Shown in pieces: positions 42,503-48,965 of a DNA stretch of 64,000 bases. A model generated the notes under the pieces. The model was not told where the DNA came from. It made no database searches and worked only from the letters and a program-made list of their open reading frames with translations. The position numbers and the translations under genes were made by a program. The DNA comes from Hyphomicrobiales bacterium (lineage in GTDB: Bacteria; Pseudomonadota; Alphaproteobacteria; Rhizobiales; Xanthobacteraceae), in assembly GCA_017305715.1 (NCBI GenBank), contig JAFKKG010000036.1, positions 45,630 to 109,629 on the forward strand. Reading direction: 5' to 3'. Every line of letters starts with the position of its first letter. Positions within the stretch are counted from its first letter, which is position 1.

Positions 42503-43753
42503 TCAGTACGCCCGCAGCGCGGGTCCGTCGCCGACCATGTCCGGCTGCCGGGCCAGCGAAACCGCCGGTGACATCAGGATCACCAGTGCCTGCGCGGCGA
42601 AGATCGCGGCGGCAAGGTACAAACACGCTTCCGCGCTGTAGAGGCCGCCGACGATGGCGCCGAGCGCCGAGCCGAGCGGACGCGCGCCATAGCTCGTGAT
42701 GTTGATGGCGGAGACGCGTCCGAGCAGCGACGGCGGCGTCACCGACTGGCGCAGCGTGGTGGTCGAGATCACCCACAGGATCGGGCCGACGCCGAGCAGG
42801 AAGAAGCTCAGGCCCGCGAGCCAGGGTGAGGCCATGAAGGTGGTCAGCGCCATGACCATGGCCGCGGCGAAACCGGTCACGGGGCCGAGCGCGATGACGG
42901 TGCCGAAGGGCAGCCGGCGCATCACCCGCGTCGCTGCGAGCGCACCGACCACCATCCCGACGCCATACATCGCCAGCGTCGTGCCGATGCCGGCTGCCGA
43001 AAGGCCGAAGCGGCGCACCGCGTAAGGCACGAACACCGACAGGATGACGAAAAAGGCCGCGCCAAAGACGAATTGCGTGATGAACACCGGCCGCAGCAGC
43101 GGATGATGCAGCACGAAAGCGGCGCCTTCCTTGATGTCCTGCAGCGGATGCCGCCGCGGCGCGGGGGCGCGGGCCGGCTCATAGATGCCCGACAGCAGCA
43201 CCACCGCGATCACGGAAAGCGCCGCGGCGAATCCAAAGGCGGGCGCTGCACCGACCCATCCGACCAGCACGCCGCCGAGCGCGGGGCCGCTGGCAAACGC
43301 AACGGTGCGCGCGAGCTCGATCCGCGCATTCGCCGCCGGCAGTTGTTGCGGATTCACCAGCGAGGGCACCAGCGCTGGCGCCGCGACGCTGTAGGCGACC
43401 GTGCCGCAGACCGCAATGAAGCCGAGCAAGGCCAGCAGCGGCAGCGTCATCCATCCCTGCCAGATCAGCAGCAGGATGGCCGCCAGTGCCACCGCCCGCA
43501 GCGCTTCGGAGCCCGCCATCAGCCAGCGCCGCGAGATGCGGTCGGCGAGCAGGCCCGCCGGAATCGCAAACAGGATGAAGGGCAGCGTCAGCGCGGTCTG
43601 TAGCAGACCGGTCTGGCCTTCGCCGACGCCGAGCAGCAGCACCGCGACGATCGGGGCGGCGGCCAGCGCGATCTGCTCGGCCGATTGCGCGGCGAGGTTG
43701 GACCAGGCGAGGCGGTTGAAGGTCGGCGGCAGCGTCGTGTCGGCGGCGGGCAT
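42503..43753 (-). CDS. MFS transporter (enterobactin-exporter-like group)
   Basis: The 416-residue carrier resembles the EntS/MFS_3 branch: FNRLAWSNLAAQSAEQIALAAAPIVAVLLLGVGEGQTGLLQTALTLPFILFAIPAGLLADRISRRWLM gives helices 1-2 and motif A. The second half includes LLGRVSAINITSYGARPLGSALGAIVGGL, the hallmark of that branch. The exported substrate is unknown. It ends convergently with the PhyH gene and is separated from the flotillin operon by a terminator. Confidence 0.88.
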   Translation of the reverse strand: MPAADTTLPPTFNRLAWSNLAAQSAEQIALAAAPIVAVLLLGVGEGQTGLLQTALTLPFILFAIPAGLLADRISRRWLMAGSEALRAVALAAILLLIWQGWMTLPLLALLGFIAVCGTVAYSVAAPALVPSLVNPQQLPAANARIELARTVAFASGPALGGVLVGWVGAAPAFGFAAALSVIAVVLLSGIYEPARAPAPRRHPLQDIKEGAAFVLHHPLLRPVFITQFVFGAAFFVILSVFVPYAVRRFGLSAAGIGTTLAMYGVGMVVGALAATRVMRRLPFGTVIALGPVTGFAAAMVMALTTFMASPWLAGLSFFLLGVGPILWVISTTTLRQSVTPPSLLGRVSAINITSYGARPLGSALGAIVGGLYSAEACLYLAAAIFAAQALVILMSPAVSLARQPDMVGDGPALRAY

Positions 43754-43831
43754 GATTTGATTCCCTGAGCATTCGTTTCGCCGTCATTGTCTGACCGCAG
43801 CACGATCGAACCCACCCGTTTCCCGACAAGC

Positions 43832-43866
43832 AAAAAGCCCGCCGCGTGGAACCGCGGCGGGCTTCT
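43832..43866 (-). terminator. Rho-independent terminator of the flotillin operon
   Basis: GCCCGCCGCG (43837-43846) pairs with CGCGGCGGGC (43853-43862) around TGGAAC. On the reverse strand the stem is followed by TTTTTG, so it terminates the operon that ends at 43892. On the forward strand a T-containing tail also follows, but no forward gene precedes it. Confidence 0.9.
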
Positions 43867-43891
43867 TTCAATTTGCAACTTGAACGGCGGA

Positions 43892-45658
43892 TTACGACTT
43901 CGGTCCGAGCGTCGCTTTCCCCGTGCCCGAGATGGTGTTGGGCGGCGCATCGGCAGGTGCGGCCGGCGCCGCAGGCGCCTCGGACGGATGGGCGAGCTTC
44001 TGGGCCGCCAGCGCATTGGTGAGGCTGGTCAGCGCATCCGGTCCGGCTGCAAAACCGGCCTCGGTGAGGATCTTGTCGATGATCGGCTTGAACGCCGAGA
44101 CCGACAGCAACTGGCTTGCAAGCCCGTCGCCCAGACCGAGATTGCCGCCGCCGGCTCCAGCTCCGCCGCCGATGCCGCCACCGCCGCGGCCGAGCAGGCT
44201 GCCGGTATCGAAGATCCGGATGTCCGAAATCTTCTCGATCGGCTTGACCGCTTCGGCCAGCGCGCTCGGGATGATGTTGAGGCGGGCGAGGTTGAGGTCG
44301 TATTCGATGATCTCAGAGCCGAGCTTGTTGCGGGCCTCGGCCTTGAGGGCTGCGACCTCGGCCTCGGCCTCGCCGAGCGCCTTGACGCCGGTCGCGCGCG
44401 TCGTCGCGGCGGCGGCATCGGCCCGGGCGAGCACGTTGATCGCTTCGGCCTTGTTGGCGGCGGCCTGCCGTTCGGCCTCCGCCATCACGGTGATCGGCAT
44501 CGCGTCGGTTTCGGCGACCTTGCGCGCCGCGATCACGTTGATGATCTTGTCGCGCTCGGCGATTTCGGTGGCCCGCGCCGTCGTGACCTTTTCCTCGGCC
44601 GCAATCGCCAGCGCGCGCGCCGTCTCGGCGATGGTCTGCGCTTCGGATTGTTCCTTGTTCTTGTTGGCGACGACGATCGCGGCTTCCTGCGCCACGACCT
44701 GGAGATCGCGGTCCATCTCGGTGGTGCGGCGCTTGACCGCCAGATCGGCCTCGATCTTGCGGGTGTCGCGCAACTGGTTGGCTTCGGTCTGCTTGTTGGC
44801 GACCGCCAGTTCCTGCTGGATGCGGTACTCGGCTTCGTTCTGCAACGCGGTCTGTTCGACCTGCGCGGTCTGCGCGCGCATCGCGGCGGTCTTGTTGGCG
44901 ATGTCGCGCTGCTGCGCCAGTTCCGCCTCGCGCTTGGTGGCCTCGATCGTCAGCGTGGTCTGGCGCGCGACGAGGTCCTGCTGGGCGATGTTGACCTCCG
45001 TGGTGCGGACGATCTGGTTGCGCTCCTGCTCGCGCTCCCTGGTGATCTTGGTCAGCGTCGTGAGGCCGTGGGCGTCGAAGAAATTGCTCGGATTGAAATG
45101 CTTGATGTCGCTCTGGTCGAGCCGCGTCAGCGACACCGATTCGAGTTCGAGGCCGTTGTTCTGGATGTCGGCGCCGACCGCGTCCTGCACCGCCTTGACG
45201 AAGGTGGCGCGCTGTTCCTGCAACTCCTCGAGATTCATGGTGGCCGCGACCGAGCGCAGGCCATCGACGAATTTGGCTTCGACCAGTTCGCGCAATTCGG
45301 CGGCGTCATTGGTGCGGTTGCCGAGCGTTTGCGCCGCCAGCGCGATCGACGATGCATCGGGTTTGACGCGCAGGTAGAATTCGGCGCCGATGTCGACGCG
45401 CATGCGGTCCTTGGTGATCAGCGAATCCGGGCCGCCGCGGGCGACTTCCAGCCGCAGCGTCTTCAAATTGACCGCGGCGGTGGAATGGAAGACCGGCAGC
45501 ACCAGCGAGCCGCCGTCGAGCACGACCTTCTGGCCGCCGAGGCCGGTGCGGACATAGGCTTCATCGCGCGTCGAGCGCCGGTAGAGCCGGGCGAACAACA
45601 GGCCCAAGACAAAAACGACGGCGACGCCAATGGCAACGGGTACAGCAAGTTCCCACAT
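43892..45658 (-). CDS. yqiK: Flotillin-like SPFH protein (YqiK type)
   Basis: The 588-residue protein has one N-terminal membrane helix (VPVAIGVAVVFVLGLLFARLY), an SPFH/Band7 domain at about residues 30-210 (VRTGLGGQKVVLDGGSLVLPVFH, LESVSLTRLDQSDIKHFNPSNFFDAHGL), and a long Ala/Glu/Gln-rich coiled coil (about 210-470). A Gly-rich linker and a short C-terminal helix follow. Flotillins scaffold membrane microdomains. It is the last gene of a three-gene operon with a YqiJ-like and a PspA-like gene, as with E. coli yqiJ-yqiK. Its start is three bases after the yqiJ stop. Confidence 0.93.
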   Translation of the reverse strand: MWELAVPVAIGVAVVFVLGLLFARLYRRSTRDEAYVRTGLGGQKVVLDGGSLVLPVFHSTAAVNLKTLRLEVARGGPDSLITKDRMRVDIGAEFYLRVKPDASSIALAAQTLGNRTNDAAELRELVEAKFVDGLRSVAATMNLEELQEQRATFVKAVQDAVGADIQNNGLELESVSLTRLDQSDIKHFNPSNFFDAHGLTTLTKITREREQERNQIVRTTEVNIAQQDLVARQTTLTIEATKREAELAQQRDIANKTAAMRAQTAQVEQTALQNEAEYRIQQELAVANKQTEANQLRDTRKIEADLAVKRRTTEMDRDLQVVAQEAAIVVANKNKEQSEAQTIAETARALAIAAEEKVTTARATEIAERDKIINVIAARKVAETDAMPITVMAEAERQAAANKAEAINVLARADAAAATTRATGVKALGEAEAEVAALKAEARNKLGSEIIEYDLNLARLNIIPSALAEAVKPIEKISDIRIFDTGSLLGRGGGGIGGGAGAGGGNLGLGDGLASQLLSVSAFKPIIDKILTEAGFAAGPDALTSLTNALAAQKLAHPSEAPAAPAAPADAPPNTISGTGKATLGPKS

Positions 45659-45661
45659 ATT

Positions 45662-46324
45662 TTATGCCCTGTTTGATGATTGTATTGGTGCAATGAGATC
45701 GGCGGGTGCGGAAATGGCGATGAAGCTCTTGGCGTCGCGGTCGACCAGCAACACGCTGGCGCCGACCGGGAGCGGCGTTGAATCGGCGCTGGCGCGCGCG
45801 GTAAGTGTATGCCAGTTGCCGAAGACATCCTTGAGACGGACCTTGCCGGGCAATCCCTGGTCCAGCGGCCCGACCGCGACCTGCGCGACCTTGCCGACGA
45901 AATCGGCATCCGAGACCGCATAGGTCTCGTCGCGCGGGATGATGCGGGCGAGGCCACGGCTGGTGCTCCTGATCACGGGGACGCTGCCGACAGCCGCCAC
46001 CAGCGATGCGATCGCGACCGGCACGGTGGTGCCGAGGGTGTGTGCGACGCCCTGCAGCAAAAATCCTTCGATCGAGAAGACGCCGAGCGCCAGGATGATC
46101 AGTATCAGCAGGGGCAGGCGCCCGGCATTGATCCAGAGAAACAGGCCATCCAGTCCATGATGGCCGCCGCTGTCGGCCGAAGCATCGTGGCCGAACAGGT
46201 CGCTGAGCGAAAAACCGATGACGGTCGTCAGAAATTCGATGCCGCCGAGGACGAGCATGATGGCGGCCGCAACCGCGAACGGCCGCACGTCGGGGGCGAG
46301 CAGAATGTCGCCGATGGCACTCAT
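45662..46324 (-). CDS. yqiJ: YqiJ-like inner-membrane protein with OB-fold (NfeD-like)
   Basis: The 220-residue protein has about three membrane helices (PFAVAAAIMLVLGGIEFLTTVIG, LPLLILIILALGVFSIEGFLL, and TTVPVAIASLVAAVGSVPVI) and a C-terminal soluble beta-barrel of OB/NfeD type (DFVGKVAQVAVGPLDQGLPGKVRLKDVFGNWHTLTARA). YqiJ/NfeD proteins pair with flotillins of the YqiK type. Its ATG overlaps the stop of the PspA-like gene by four bases and its stop lies three bases before the flotillin start, so translation is coupled. Confidence 0.9.
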   Translation of the reverse strand: MSAIGDILLAPDVRPFAVAAAIMLVLGGIEFLTTVIGFSLSDLFGHDASADSGGHHGLDGLFLWINAGRLPLLILIILALGVFSIEGFLLQGVAHTLGTTVPVAIASLVAAVGSVPVIRSTSRGLARIIPRDETYAVSDADFVGKVAQVAVGPLDQGLPGKVRLKDVFGNWHTLTARASADSTPLPVGASVLLVDRDAKSFIAISAPADLIAPIQSSNRA

Positions 46325-46968
46325 TGCTGCGACTTGATCCTTTCTAGCCTTGCCGCGATTTCCTTTTCGCGGTGCAGGCGGTCGAGTTCATCCAGTTCCT
46401 TGGCTCCGAGCACGCTGGAAGCGGGAACGCCGGTCACCCGCGCGATCGCCGCCATGGCCCGGTCGGCACTTACCGTGTTAGTCGCCGAAGGGCCCCGGTT
46501 GGTTTCGGTTAACGGATGCTGCACCAGGCTCGCCTCGAGATCGGCGAGCCGCGCTTCCGCTTCGCGTCGCGCTCCAAGCATCGCCTGCAAGGCCTTGGTC
46601 TGCTCATCGATTTCGAGTTCGATGAAGTCCATCGCGCGCTCCAGCGCAATGCCCTGGGATTCCAGATCAATTTGCCGTGCGACGCCGGCGCGCGCGAGAT
46701 CCTCGCGGTTTTCCGCCAGGGCGAAGCGGATCTTTTCCGTTAGATCGGCGGTCTCGGCGTCGAGTTCGTCGCGCCGCCGCTTGAGGCGGAATTCCTCGGC
46801 GCGCGATTTGCCGAGCGCGTAACGCGCTTCGTCGGCGCCGGCATCGATTTCGCGGATCGCCTGCTTGACCAGGGCGACCTTGTTCAGGTTCTCGGCGTTG
46901 TCCATGGTCTGGCTGGCGATGGCGGCGAGCAGCCGCCCCATTCGTGCAAGGATGCCTTCGTGCAGCAT
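46321..46968 (-). CDS. Alternative short form: PspA/IM30-like coiled-coil protein from internal start
   Basis: Starting at ATG 46968, 215 residues are encoded. The start has an excellent Shine-Dalgarno, GGAGGAG, seven bases upstream, the best in the operon. PspA/IM30 proteins bind and stabilise the inner membrane under envelope stress and oligomerise through long helical hairpins; the predicted coiled coil here covers roughly the first 150 residues. Heptad-like Leu/Ala repeats with RRRDELDAETADLTEKIRFAL and EARLADLEASLVQHP are visible. A genome annotator might report only this form, with the upstream frame as a separate or absent gene. Confidence 0.7.
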   Translation of the reverse strand: MLHEGILARMGRLLAAIASQTMDNAENLNKVALVKQAIREIDAGADEARYALGKSRAEEFRLKRRRDELDAETADLTEKIRFALAENREDLARAGVARQIDLESQGIALERAMDFIELEIDEQTKALQAMLGARREAEARLADLEASLVQHPLTETNRGPSATNTVSADRAMAAIARVTGVPASSVLGAKELDELDRLHREKEIAARLERIKSQQ

Positions 46969-47451
46969 GGTCTTCTCCTCCGGCGGTGTTGATTTCGATT
47001 TGACGGCGATGTGGACTTCGTAAGTGCGGCCGTCCGAGACCAAATGAGCCGGGAAGGGACTGTCCCACCCGGCAACGTAGCCCGGCACTTCGAACGGCAC
47101 CAAGACGCGTCCCCTGACAGTGCTGATCGTCAGTGAAGTCGGTCCCTTGATCGCGAATAATTTGTCGTCGAGCGGAATCCGCCGCGGCAGGATTCCCGCG
47201 ACGTAGCCGGCGCGGTCGCGCAAGCCCAGCGTCACCAGGCGCGCGGGCAAATCGGTTTCGCGGCGGATCGTCTCGTAGGCCTGGGCATGCAGCGAGACCA
47301 GATTAGCGCCGACGGGCGCGACTTCCGAAAGGATCGCCATCATGCGGTCGTAGGCGGCAAACGTCGCCTCGATCGCCGCAACGCCCGCTTCATCGGGGGT
47401 GAGGGCGTAGCGCAGGGTCGCGGTAGGCGTCTCGACGGGCAATTTGACCAT
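46321..47451 (-). CDS. TnpB-N-like domain fused in frame to a PspA/IM30-like protein
   Basis: The frame encodes 376 residues. Residues 1-160 resemble the N-terminal part of IS605-type TnpB/OrfB proteins: TLRYALTPDEAGVAAIEATF (residues 12-31), LHAQAYETIRRETDLPARL, the box DDKLFAIKGPTSLTISTVRGRVLVPF (95-120) and AHLVSDGRTYEVHIAVK. Residues 162-376 are a PspA/IM30-like coiled coil (ILARMGRLLAAIASQTMDNA, ALVKQAIREIDAGADEARYALG). The RuvC nuclease and Zn-ribbon halves of TnpB are absent. A GGAGGAG Shine-Dalgarno (inside PPEEK) precedes ATG 46968, so a 215-residue PspA alone could also be made. It heads the operon with yqiJ and yqiK and is preceded by a palindrome. Confidence 0.75.
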   Translation of the reverse strand: MVKLPVETPTATLRYALTPDEAGVAAIEATFAAYDRMMAILSEVAPVGANLVSLHAQAYETIRRETDLPARLVTLGLRDRAGYVAGILPRRIPLDDKLFAIKGPTSLTISTVRGRVLVPFEVPGYVAGWDSPFPAHLVSDGRTYEVHIAVKSKSTPPEEKTMLHEGILARMGRLLAAIASQTMDNAENLNKVALVKQAIREIDAGADEARYALGKSRAEEFRLKRRRDELDAETADLTEKIRFALAENREDLARAGVARQIDLESQGIALERAMDFIELEIDEQTKALQAMLGARREAEARLADLEASLVQHPLTETNRGPSATNTVSADRAMAAIARVTGVPASSVLGAKELDELDRLHREKEIAARLERIKSQQ

Positions 47452-47461
47452 GCCACTAACT

Positions 47462-47484
47462 TAAAGTACTTCCTCAGTACTTTA
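47462..47484. promoter_or_regulatory. Palindrome TAAAGTACT-tcctc-AGTACTTTA upstream of the PspA-type gene
   Basis: Two 9-base perfectly complementary arms (47462-47470, 47476-47484) flank a 5-base spacer, just 11 bases before the ATG at 47451 (reverse strand). It is a probable operator for a dimeric repressor or activator of the TnpB-N/PspA-yqiJ-yqiK operon. No regulator gene is in the vicinity. The spacer on the reverse strand reads GAGGA and could also double as a ribosome binding site within a hairpin. Confidence 0.75.
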
Positions 47485-47523
47485 CAAGCGGGGCCATCGG
47501 TATCATTTTCGTGATGGCTAGAT

Positions 47524-47546
47524 GCAGTTGCAAATGAGTTGCAATA
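47524..47546 (+). promoter_or_regulatory. TTGCAA-n5-TTGCAA box upstream of mntH
   Basis: Two copies of the self-complementary hexamer TTGCAA (47528-47533 and 47539-47544) are separated by ATGAG; GCAG precedes them. It lies 29 bases before the mntH start. In B. japonicum, mntH is controlled by manganese through a Fur-family (Mur) protein that binds short repeats in the promoter. This box fits that role but was identified only by eye. Confidence 0.6.
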
Positions 47547-47573
47547 AATATCGAGATCGGCCATCGTGTTGAA

Positions 47574-48965
47574 ATGGATGCGCGAACACCCCGTTTGGGG
47601 CCCGAGACACTGCCCGAGACCTTGCAAGACACTCCCGCCGGCTGGCGTGCTGACGCCGCCGCGAACGCGCAAGCCAGCCTTCCCGAAGTCAACGCGACGA
47701 TCTCGGTGCCGTCCCTGGGCGGCCATTGGATGCGCCGGCTGCTGGCGTTTCTCGGGCCCGGCTATCTGGTCTCGGTCGGCTATATGGACCCCGGCAATTG
47801 GGCGACCGATCTCGCCGGCGGTTCGAAGTTCGGCTACACGCTGCTGGCGGTGATCCTGCTGTCGAATTTGATGGCGATCCTGCTACAGGCGCTCGCCGCA
47901 CGGCTCGGCATCGCCACCGGCCGCGATCTCGCGCAGGCCTGCCGCGCCACCTATTCGCGCCCGGTCAATTTTGCGCTGTGGCTGATCTGCGAAGCGGCAA
48001 TCATCGCCTGCGACCTCGCGGAAGTGATCGGCACCGCGATCGCGCTGAAACTGTTGTTCGGCATTCCCCTGATCGGCGGCGCGCTGATCACGGCGCTCGA
48101 CGCCTTCCTGCTGCTGCTTCTGATGAACAAGGGCTTTCGTTTCCTCGAAGCCTTCGTGATTTCGCTGCTGATCGTGATCGCGGTCTGCTTTGCCATCCAG
48201 ATCTTTGCCGCCGCGCCCCCCGTGGCCGCGATGCTGCGCGGCTTCGTGCCGTCGACCGAGATCGTCACCAATCCGGAAATGCTCTACATCGCCATCGGCA
48301 TCATCGGCGCCACCGTGATGCCGCATAATCTCTATCTGCACTCCTCGATCGTGCAGACCCGCGCCTATGAGCGCACGGACGAAGGCCGCCGCGACGCCAT
48401 CAAATGGGCGACGACGGATTCCACCATCGCCTTGATGCTGGCGCTGTTCATCAACGCCGCGATCCTGATCGTCGCCGCCGCCACCTTCCATGCGACCGGC
48501 CGCACCGAGGTCGCCGAGATCGAGCAGGCGTATGAATTGCTGTCGCCGCTGCTCGGGCTCGGCATGGCCTCGACCCTGTTCGCCGTCGCATTGCTGGCGT
48601 CCGGACTCAACTCGACGGTGACGGCGACCCTGGCCGGCCAGATCGTGATGGAAGGCTTTTTGCACCTGCGCCTGCCGAACTGGGCGCGGCGTCTGATTAC
48701 CCGTGGCATCGCCATCGTTCCCGTCGTGATCGTCACGGCGCTCTACGGCGAGAAGGGGACGGCCAATCTGCTGGTGCTCAGCCAGGTGATCCTGTCGATG
48801 CAATTGCCGTTCGCGGTGATCCCGCTGGTGCGGTTCGTGTCCGACCGGCGCAAGATGGGCGACTTTGTGATTTCCCGCTCCGTCGCCGGGGTGGCATGGA
48901 TCGTCGCGGCCCTCATCGTGACGCTGAACGTCAAGCTTTTGTACGACACGTTGTTCGGCGGGTGA
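47574..48965 (+). CDS. mntH: Nramp-family divalent metal transporter (MntH)
   Basis: MntH imports Mn2+ (and Fe2+) with protons. The 463-residue protein has a ~45-residue hydrophilic N-terminus and 11 helices. The metal-binding motif DPGNW is at residues 72-76 (Asp72, Asn75), and [15 protein letters not shown] in helix 6 holds the conserved His and the Met of the binding site. In Bradyrhizobium this is the major Mn uptake system. It is divergent from the PspA-like operon. Confidence 0.95.

Follow-up and report, generated by a model that had tools for sequence, protein, structure and literature searches.

The window considered here, a stretch of 64,000 nucleotides from a Hyphomicrobiales bacterium (contig JAFKKG010000036.1, positions 45,630 to 109,629), includes on its minus strand a single frame of 376 codons, with an ATG at 47451 and a stop at 46321, that joins a TnpB-like domain to a PspA/IM30 protein upstream of yqiJ and a flotillin gene. 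The assignment of residues ~10–155 to the WED-REC half of TnpB by homology is firm. It is likely that this half serves as a guide-free DNA-reading module, namely the part with which an autoregulating PspA binds its operator in a membrane-stress switch. The original prediction, made from the letters alone, had described the one frame and the in-frame junction of a TnpB WED/REC half with PspA in a yqiJ-flotillin operon. Both are borne out, the junction by profile-profile comparison, by structure prediction together with Foldseek, and by a genome scan.

Identity of the N-terminal domain

Residues 1–160 gave only weak matches under the cut-off in Pfam and NCBIfam, none of them convincing, and no match in PHROGs. 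The domain is blank in Pfam because the OrfB_IS605 and TNB models, as seen in five TnpBs scanned, span mainly the region from the end of WED onward.

Searched against plasmids by tblastn at E up to 10, the N-terminal domain (N-domain) of an Agrobacterium member matched 32 records, 11 of which are family members. The remaining 21 matches were weak (E 5e-3 to 7); 13 of these are annotated as TnpB or transposase, from Thermus, Deinococcus, Allomeiothermus and haloarchaea, and eight have another annotation, are hypothetical or are unannotated. Among seven phage matches the best (E 5e-3) was the transposase of a Thermus phage, and none of the remaining six is a TnpB. With the N-domain of another member (L107), tblastn matched an Allomeiothermus TnpB at 6e-5. 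A stand-alone open reading frame (ORF) of 176 aa on a Thermobacillus composti plasmid (L127:1881-2411) also resembles the TnpB WED-REC half (tblastn 7e-6), with no RuvC after it; it may be another free-standing TnpB half or a decayed TnpB.

A profile of nine N-domains of the family (A4) was aligned by hhalign with a profile of nine complete TnpBs (A5) at a probability of 98.7% (E 3.3e-16) over 146 columns, the alignment ending just before RuvC. Seven controls, namely five column-shuffled profiles, the reversed A5 and E. coli YjfI (a DUF2170 gene before a pspA homologue, presumably of CesT/Tir type), gave 0.1–0.2%, and four single TnpBs gave 92–97%. Because the TnpBs in A5 had been picked by their similarity to the N-domain, more weight is placed on a search with profile A9 through 398 genomes of the phylum. 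This gave 15 matches, comprising nine family members, one complete TnpB and five weak matches. The complete TnpB (L169), found in another class of the phylum, was the best match outside the family (E 7.9e-11) and is above the Pfam cut-off for both TNB (6.5e-23) and OrfB_IS605 (3.1e-12). Of the weak matches, L170 proved on full reading to be an unrelated protein; for L172 just a short frame was obtained. One unselected TnpB (L133) went undetected by hhalign with A4; hence, sequence comparison reaches only a single branch of TnpBs. Profile A4 likewise matched no TnpB among PDB sequences, and among the PDB comparisons only those based on structure found TnpB.

The AlphaFold2 model of the N-domain, built from 21 family rows, has a predicted local distance difference test score (pLDDT) of 84.9 and a predicted TM-score (pTM) of 0.82. 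A Foldseek search with this part of the protein, as the original prediction had suggested, returned only TnpB, Fanzor2 or Cas12-type chains at ranks 1–16 (E 1.9e-3 to 0.25), with a probability of 1.00 for the first six and down to 0.12 for the others. The best match was 8h1j (E 1.9e-3), 8bf8 reached a TM-score of 0.66 over the query, and rank 17 was an unrelated lipid-binding barrel. The full-length model (pLDDT 71.1, pTM 0.40) matched PspA/Vipp1 and ISFba1 TnpB (3.5e-4).

Neither OrfB_IS605 nor TNB was matched by Pfam in the fusion protein, in agreement with the predicted absence of the RuvC and zinc-ribbon parts, and the WED part is directly followed by PspA. The only PF07282 match at E ≤1e-8 in the source genome lies on a different contig from that of the window.

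Conservation and distribution of the fusion

Scanning genome_contigs with a pattern yielded 143 relatives; the best 80 were kept, and all counts over 80 loci refer to these. By title they comprise 78 Bradyrhizobium, one Xanthobacteraceae and one Frankia sp. RB7. The fusion is stop-free throughout in all 80. Of 41 genomes near that of the window, 17 also have it stop-free, namely the source genome and 16 of 24 congeneric ones, as against 0 of 16 from other families. Thus, the survey of homologues, which according to the original prediction might have revealed an N-terminal frame closed by stops, found that frame open. Median ratios of nonsynonymous to synonymous substitution rates (dN/dS) between the window and 29 relatives are 0.13 for residues 10–150 and 0.085 for residues 162–312. 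Given the stop-free relatives and the low dN/dS, the frame at 46321–47451 is not open by chance; plus-strand frame 1 across the same positions is closed by stops.

On plasmids, most of the protein is present in 11 of 12 matched records (Agrobacterium, Shinella, Rhizobium, Bosea), and in the four plasmid regions read an OB-fold protein and flotillin come after the fusion. A class-level scan of 385 genomes gave six strong family matches; the other six of its 12 matches were weak (E 0.003–0.09), none was shown to belong to the family, and they are not counted. Fifteen members, some already found in other scans, came from 297 genomes at the level of the order, and two other orders of the class contributed eight members from 76 genomes and one from 10. 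The fusion is therefore kept in at least three alphaproteobacterial orders, upstream of yqiJ and flotillin where the surroundings were read.

The PspA part and its internal start

Residues 162–376 had been predicted to be PspA/IM30-like, and Pfam PspA_IM30 is matched at residues 166–298 (E 8.1e-11, 42.4 bits against a cut-off of 33.9). In three distant members the same model is above the cut-off in L021 and L023 and below it in L022 (26.6 bits). The structural model shows a long helical hairpin formed by helices 188–246 and 250–311, and Foldseek matches it to PspA (4whe, E 1.1e-4). PspA proteins in general bind membranes and self-assemble.

A Shine-Dalgarno sequence of the GAGGA type lies a few nucleotides before the ATG of M162 in 80 of 80 loci, and AGGAG or GGAGG precedes this start in all eight distant relatives read. 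This motif lies in the codons of E158 and E159. All 29 rows of 376 aa have GAG at both positions, and of the 26 invariant glutamates in these rows E158 and E159 alone are never GAA. In a second clade (44 rows) both are also GAG throughout, yet three further glutamates are likewise. Because the Shine-Dalgarno sequence and the ATG at M162 are conserved, PspA alone is very likely made from M162 as a second product.

A conserved palindrome before the start

In a survey of 129 loci by a single rule, representing 117 distinct upstream stretches, a palindrome precedes the start of the fusion gene in every locus. Its arms match at 7/7 positions in 94 loci, 6/7 in 31 and 5/7 in four. The distance from its end to the start is 10–12 nt in 126 loci, 2 nt in L190, and 39 nt in L110 and L182, which are one genome sampled twice. 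On scoring 22 representatives, 15 scored 9, four 8, two 7 and one 6; shuffled sequences reached at least 9, 8, 7 and 6 at rates of 0.009%, 0.1%, 1.2% and 11%, respectively. The paired arms vary in concert, with AAAGCAC, AAAGGAT, AAAGTAT and AAAACAC all found. The pattern AAAGYAC-N7-GTRCTTT occurs once in the 7.45-Mb source genome, and a control pattern does not occur.

Many relatives show CTTG(A/T)A...AAAGCAC-N7-GTGCTTT-TAT before the first ATG, a layout similar to that of the window. The CTTG(A/T)A and TAT elements resemble the alphaproteobacterial -35 and -10 consensus. The palindrome thus lies between the putative -35 and -10, and the end of the latter is ~6 nt before the ATG in many members, which suggests that the transcript of the fusion operon is perhaps leaderless. 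The putative -10 of the window lies 6 nt before the ATG at 47451 and is weak as a -10. Instead of a single palindrome between the -35 and the -10, L190 carries three consecutive half-sites (GGTGCTTT, AAAGCACC, GGTGCTTT) around its putative -10.

Covariation of residue 71 with the palindrome

Base 5 of the arms is associated with residue 71 of the N-domain. A C at this base in at least one arm was found in 114 of 115 loci with R71 and in none of 14 with Q71, and a G in 9 of the 14 Q71 loci and in none of the 115 R71 loci. When rows are grouped by residue 71, columns 36, 71 and 131 separate the groups; for 71 this is circular, and the grouping was replaced by classes defined from the operator only. 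With these, the presence of C at base 5 is called correctly from column 71 for 21 of the 22 representatives (baseline 15); no other N-domain column with at most three kinds of residue does as well.

At least two changes of residue 71 are needed on the tree, as forced by the starred branches. L190 clusters with the Q71 rows (100/100) yet has R71 and AAAGCAC; it differs from its five sisters in 49 columns, and in just two of these, 71 and 102, does it agree with all 14 other C-type rows. L168 is alone in having T55 for H55 and alone in having the operator AAAACAC.

Residues 71, 74, 75 and 78 are spaced like one face of a helix (model helix 70–79). In a weak MAFFT alignment, T74, L75 and R78 fall on K76, F77 and Q80 of ISDra2 TnpB, which read the transposon-associated motif (TAM) according to the available part of PMC10097598.

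Sister operons with separate genes

YqiJ_N is present in 24 of 372 genomes of the class. Six of these have the fusion, ten have PspA without the TnpB N-domain, and in eight no PspA was detected in the stretch examined. In all ten PspA operons without the TnpB N-domain, a separate ORF of ~170–190 aa lies before pspA. In nine operons 2–38 nt separate it from the PspA match; in L137, whose match begins inside PspA, the distance is 168 nt. The N-terminus of these ORFs is conserved (SVPxSVRxSxxDAAFLA...TPSEKxRAII) and resembles that of ribbon-helix-helix repressors. Five of them were scanned with Pfam; none gave a match above the cut-off, and four had weak sub-cut-off matches or none. The TnpB N-domain occupies a slot that elsewhere holds a putative DNA-binding regulator.

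TGCATAC-like repeats are present in several promoters of the sister ORFs, and the palindrome score on the ten promoters was at most 5. The strict operator pattern, which is lacking in four of the six fusion loci, misses the GGA and GTA variants; therefore, its absence from the sister operons was not used.

Proposed mechanism and alternatives

In this model, the N-terminal half of the fusion is a TnpB-derived WED-REC module from which RuvC nuclease and zinc ribbon have disappeared. In ISDra2 TnpB the TAM duplex sits in a cleft formed by WED and REC (PMC10097598, available part), and the equivalent cleft of the fusion would read DNA without a guide RNA. Two copies would bind the two arms of the palindrome in the protein's own promoter (AAAGCAC-N7-GTGCTTT and variants) and repress it. 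The C-terminal PspA/IM30 part, as the oligomerising and membrane-sensing part, would self-assemble and bind stressed membrane. A damaged membrane would draw the protein off the operator, allowing the fusion, YqiJ and flotillin to be made, and the internal ribosome-binding site and ATG would supply PspA alone as the bulk effector. With slightly less assurance, it is expected that the TAM-reading half of TnpB lives here without nuclease or guide as a protein-only transcription-factor domain, in which a few REC-helix residues (55 and 71) set the specificity.

A number of observations weigh against this model. The sequence comparison with ISDra2 TnpB suggested by the original prediction failed, that protein alone being undetected against a ten-row family alignment (hhalign 0.2%), and the equivalence of T74/L75/R78 to K76/F77/Q80 therefore rests on the weak MAFFT alignment; nor did any Foldseek match of the N-domain fall below E 0.001. 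The N-domain is about neutral, with 14 K+R and 15 D+E in the window's copy. The window itself is an exception to the covariation, combining R71 with a T at base 5 of each arm (AAAGTAC); T only is found at this base in one of 115 R71 loci (the window) and in 5 of 14 Q71 loci. Column 102 predicts the operator nearly as well as 71 (20/22). The covariation is supported by just two or three independent changes, L168 forms a long branch, and the tree positions of L176 and of the sisters of L190 are drawn open. Moreover, operator and gene are adjacent and inherited together, so their association alone is no proof of reading. The palindrome of L110/L182 is imperfect (5/7) as well as 39 nt upstream. 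No match to the fusion gene was found in 8 of the 24 congeneric genomes, and thus the operon is patchy even inside the genus. Finally, the ribbon-helix-helix likeness of the sister ORFs was unconfirmed by Pfam and PDB profile searches.

Some of these points would suit a scheme in which an unlinked host transcription factor reads the palindrome and the TnpB N-domain has come to act in protein-protein contacts or in assembly, either tuning the polymers of PspA or linking these to YqiJ and flotillin. The neutral charge of the domain, the different operator distances in L110 and L190, and the break of the covariation by the window's own operator favour it. Nevertheless, this scheme is considered unlikely. 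In L190 and L176 the operator type tracks residue 71 of the fusion, both residue and operator being unlike those in other genomes of the same family; the strict pattern occurs once in the genome, so that no second gene shares its strict form; YqiJ and flotillin have no DNA-binding domain in Pfam; and the sister operons have their putative DNA-binding ORF in the equivalent place. The original prediction had instead regarded the N-domain as a captured RNA-binding half, which would make the protein an RNA-responsive PspA that still binds a guide-like RNA or mRNA. The TnpB homology in that proposal stands on the profiles, the structure and the genome scan, whereas the capture as an RNA-binding half is less well supported, because the promoter palindrome, the covariation of the REC helix and the putative DNA-binding ORF of the sister operons point to protein-only DNA reading.

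RNA binding is thus judged improbable here, even though the WED domain of ISDra2 contacts the guide RNA (PMC10097598, available part) and the TnpB-derived TldR regulators retain theirs (PMC13418256, available part). As far as the former source goes, RuvC forms with WED the main RNA-binding surface of ISDra2, and RuvC is gone from the fusion. The place after the TnpB part is filled by the pspA coding sequence, the gene end overlaps yqiJ, and the conserved palindrome between the putative -35 and -10 would, if this promoter assignment is correct, be untranscribed. In 43500–48500, Rfam gave no match at its gathering score, with two weak sub-threshold matches and no dedicated guide-RNA search made.

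That the N-domain is not TnpB at all but another small OB or beta-barrel protein, such as a CesT/Tir-type partner, is very improbable. CesT/Tir-PspA-YqiJ-flotillin operons are described in PMC11237479 (available part), and the failure to find ISDra2 by sequence and the lack of a Foldseek E under 0.001 would agree with such an identity. It was rejected on the grounds that hhalign gave 98.7% to TnpB and 0.1% to YjfI, that the fold found by Foldseek is WED-REC with TnpB/Cas12-type chains at all ranks from 1 to 16, and that profile A9 matches a complete TnpB at 7.9e-11.

Organisation of the locus

The features discussed are listed in Table 1. Between the fusion and the divergent gene, a TTGCAACTCATTTGCAA-type repeat is present at 47525–47560, which we take to resemble a manganese-responsive Mur box. 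An Rfam match to ar14 at 43830–43958 on the minus strand (22.6 bits, below the gathering score, which is 58.8) is probably due to chance.

Table 1. Features of the fusion locus (window positions) and of the sister operons.
Feature	Position	Strand	Basis or remark
TnpB(WED-REC)::PspA fusion gene, 376 aa	46321..47451	-	frame reading, Pfam, genome comparison
TnpB-like WED-REC domain, 151 modelled residues from ~residue 8	46976..47430	-	AlphaFold, Foldseek, hhalign
PspA/IM30 part, residues 162-376, internal start ATG 46968	46321..46968	-	Pfam, Foldseek
Internal Shine-Dalgarno GGAGGAG	46975..46981	-	before ATG 46968 (M162)
yqiJ (YqiJ_N + YqiJ_OB)	45662..46324	-	Pfam; yqiJ start overlaps fusion stop
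Flotillin gene (Band_7 + Flot), after yqiJ	43892..45658	-	Pfam
21-bp palindrome AAAGTAC-N7-GTACTTT, proposed operator	47463..47483	-	sequence reading, 129-locus comparison
Putative promoter: -35 TTGTAA 47487-47482, -10 TAAGTT 47463-47458	47458..47487	-	reading, inference
Nramp-type transporter frame	47574-48965	divergent, upstream of fusion	name from inspection
Sister ORFs before pspA	L138:2624-3139, L139:2571-3086, L146:229-744, seven more		

Comparison with known systems

TnpB, Cas12 and the domesticated TldR proteins use guide RNAs. The TnpBs of IS200/IS605 elements (ISDra2, ISFba1 and those of Thermus and Deinococcus) share the WED-REC fold with the fusion, and the Thermus/Deinococcus type shares sequence likeness with its N-domain over ~146 columns; the fusion differs in lacking RuvC and the zinc ribbon and in being joined to PspA. 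TldRs are TnpB-derived repressors that have an inactivated RuvC and use a guide RNA (PMC13418256, available part). They resemble the fusion in their origin from TnpB, the loss of the nuclease, the apparent transcriptional control and the fixed association with host genes. In contrast, the fusion is without the whole RuvC/TNB half, its proposed site is a promoter palindrome, and its domain is joined to PspA.

PspA/IM30 proteins occur in YqiJ-flotillin operons, including the CesT/Tir-PspA dyad, according to the available part of a survey of phage shock protein systems (PMC11237479). The PspA domain and the YqiJ and flotillin neighbours are shared with the fusion, which has WED-REC where the dyad has a CesT/Tir-type domain before PspA. 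In the same part of the survey, tandem repeats and fusions jointly make up <2% of PspA homologues, with partners such as NlpC/P60 and PspAA. The word TnpB is absent from its main text, and the available part of a second survey (PMC9239133) includes neither tnpb nor yqij. The original prediction knew of no described system that combines TnpB, PspA and flotillin, and no description of the architecture was found in the open-licence literature, where the co-mention of TnpB and PspA concerns, by title, pneumococcal vesicles. The TnpB-PspA architecture is thus undescribed as far as the open-licence literature searched reaches.

PspA of E. coli is linked to control of its own operon, which resembles the switch proposed for the fusion. 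There, a separate enhancer-binding protein, PspF, reads the DNA, whereas in the fusion the PspA chain would carry its own DNA-reading part, a one-component mode of control for PspA systems. If true, a guide-free regulator made of half a TnpB would be categorically new, and would mean that exaptation from the same ancestor has taken a second route, one without RNA. It would also provide a natural code for the choice of DNA by REC residues, which bears on the recognition of TAMs and protospacer-adjacent motifs (PAMs), and would make a widespread, already sequenced family of alphaproteobacterial operons interpretable.

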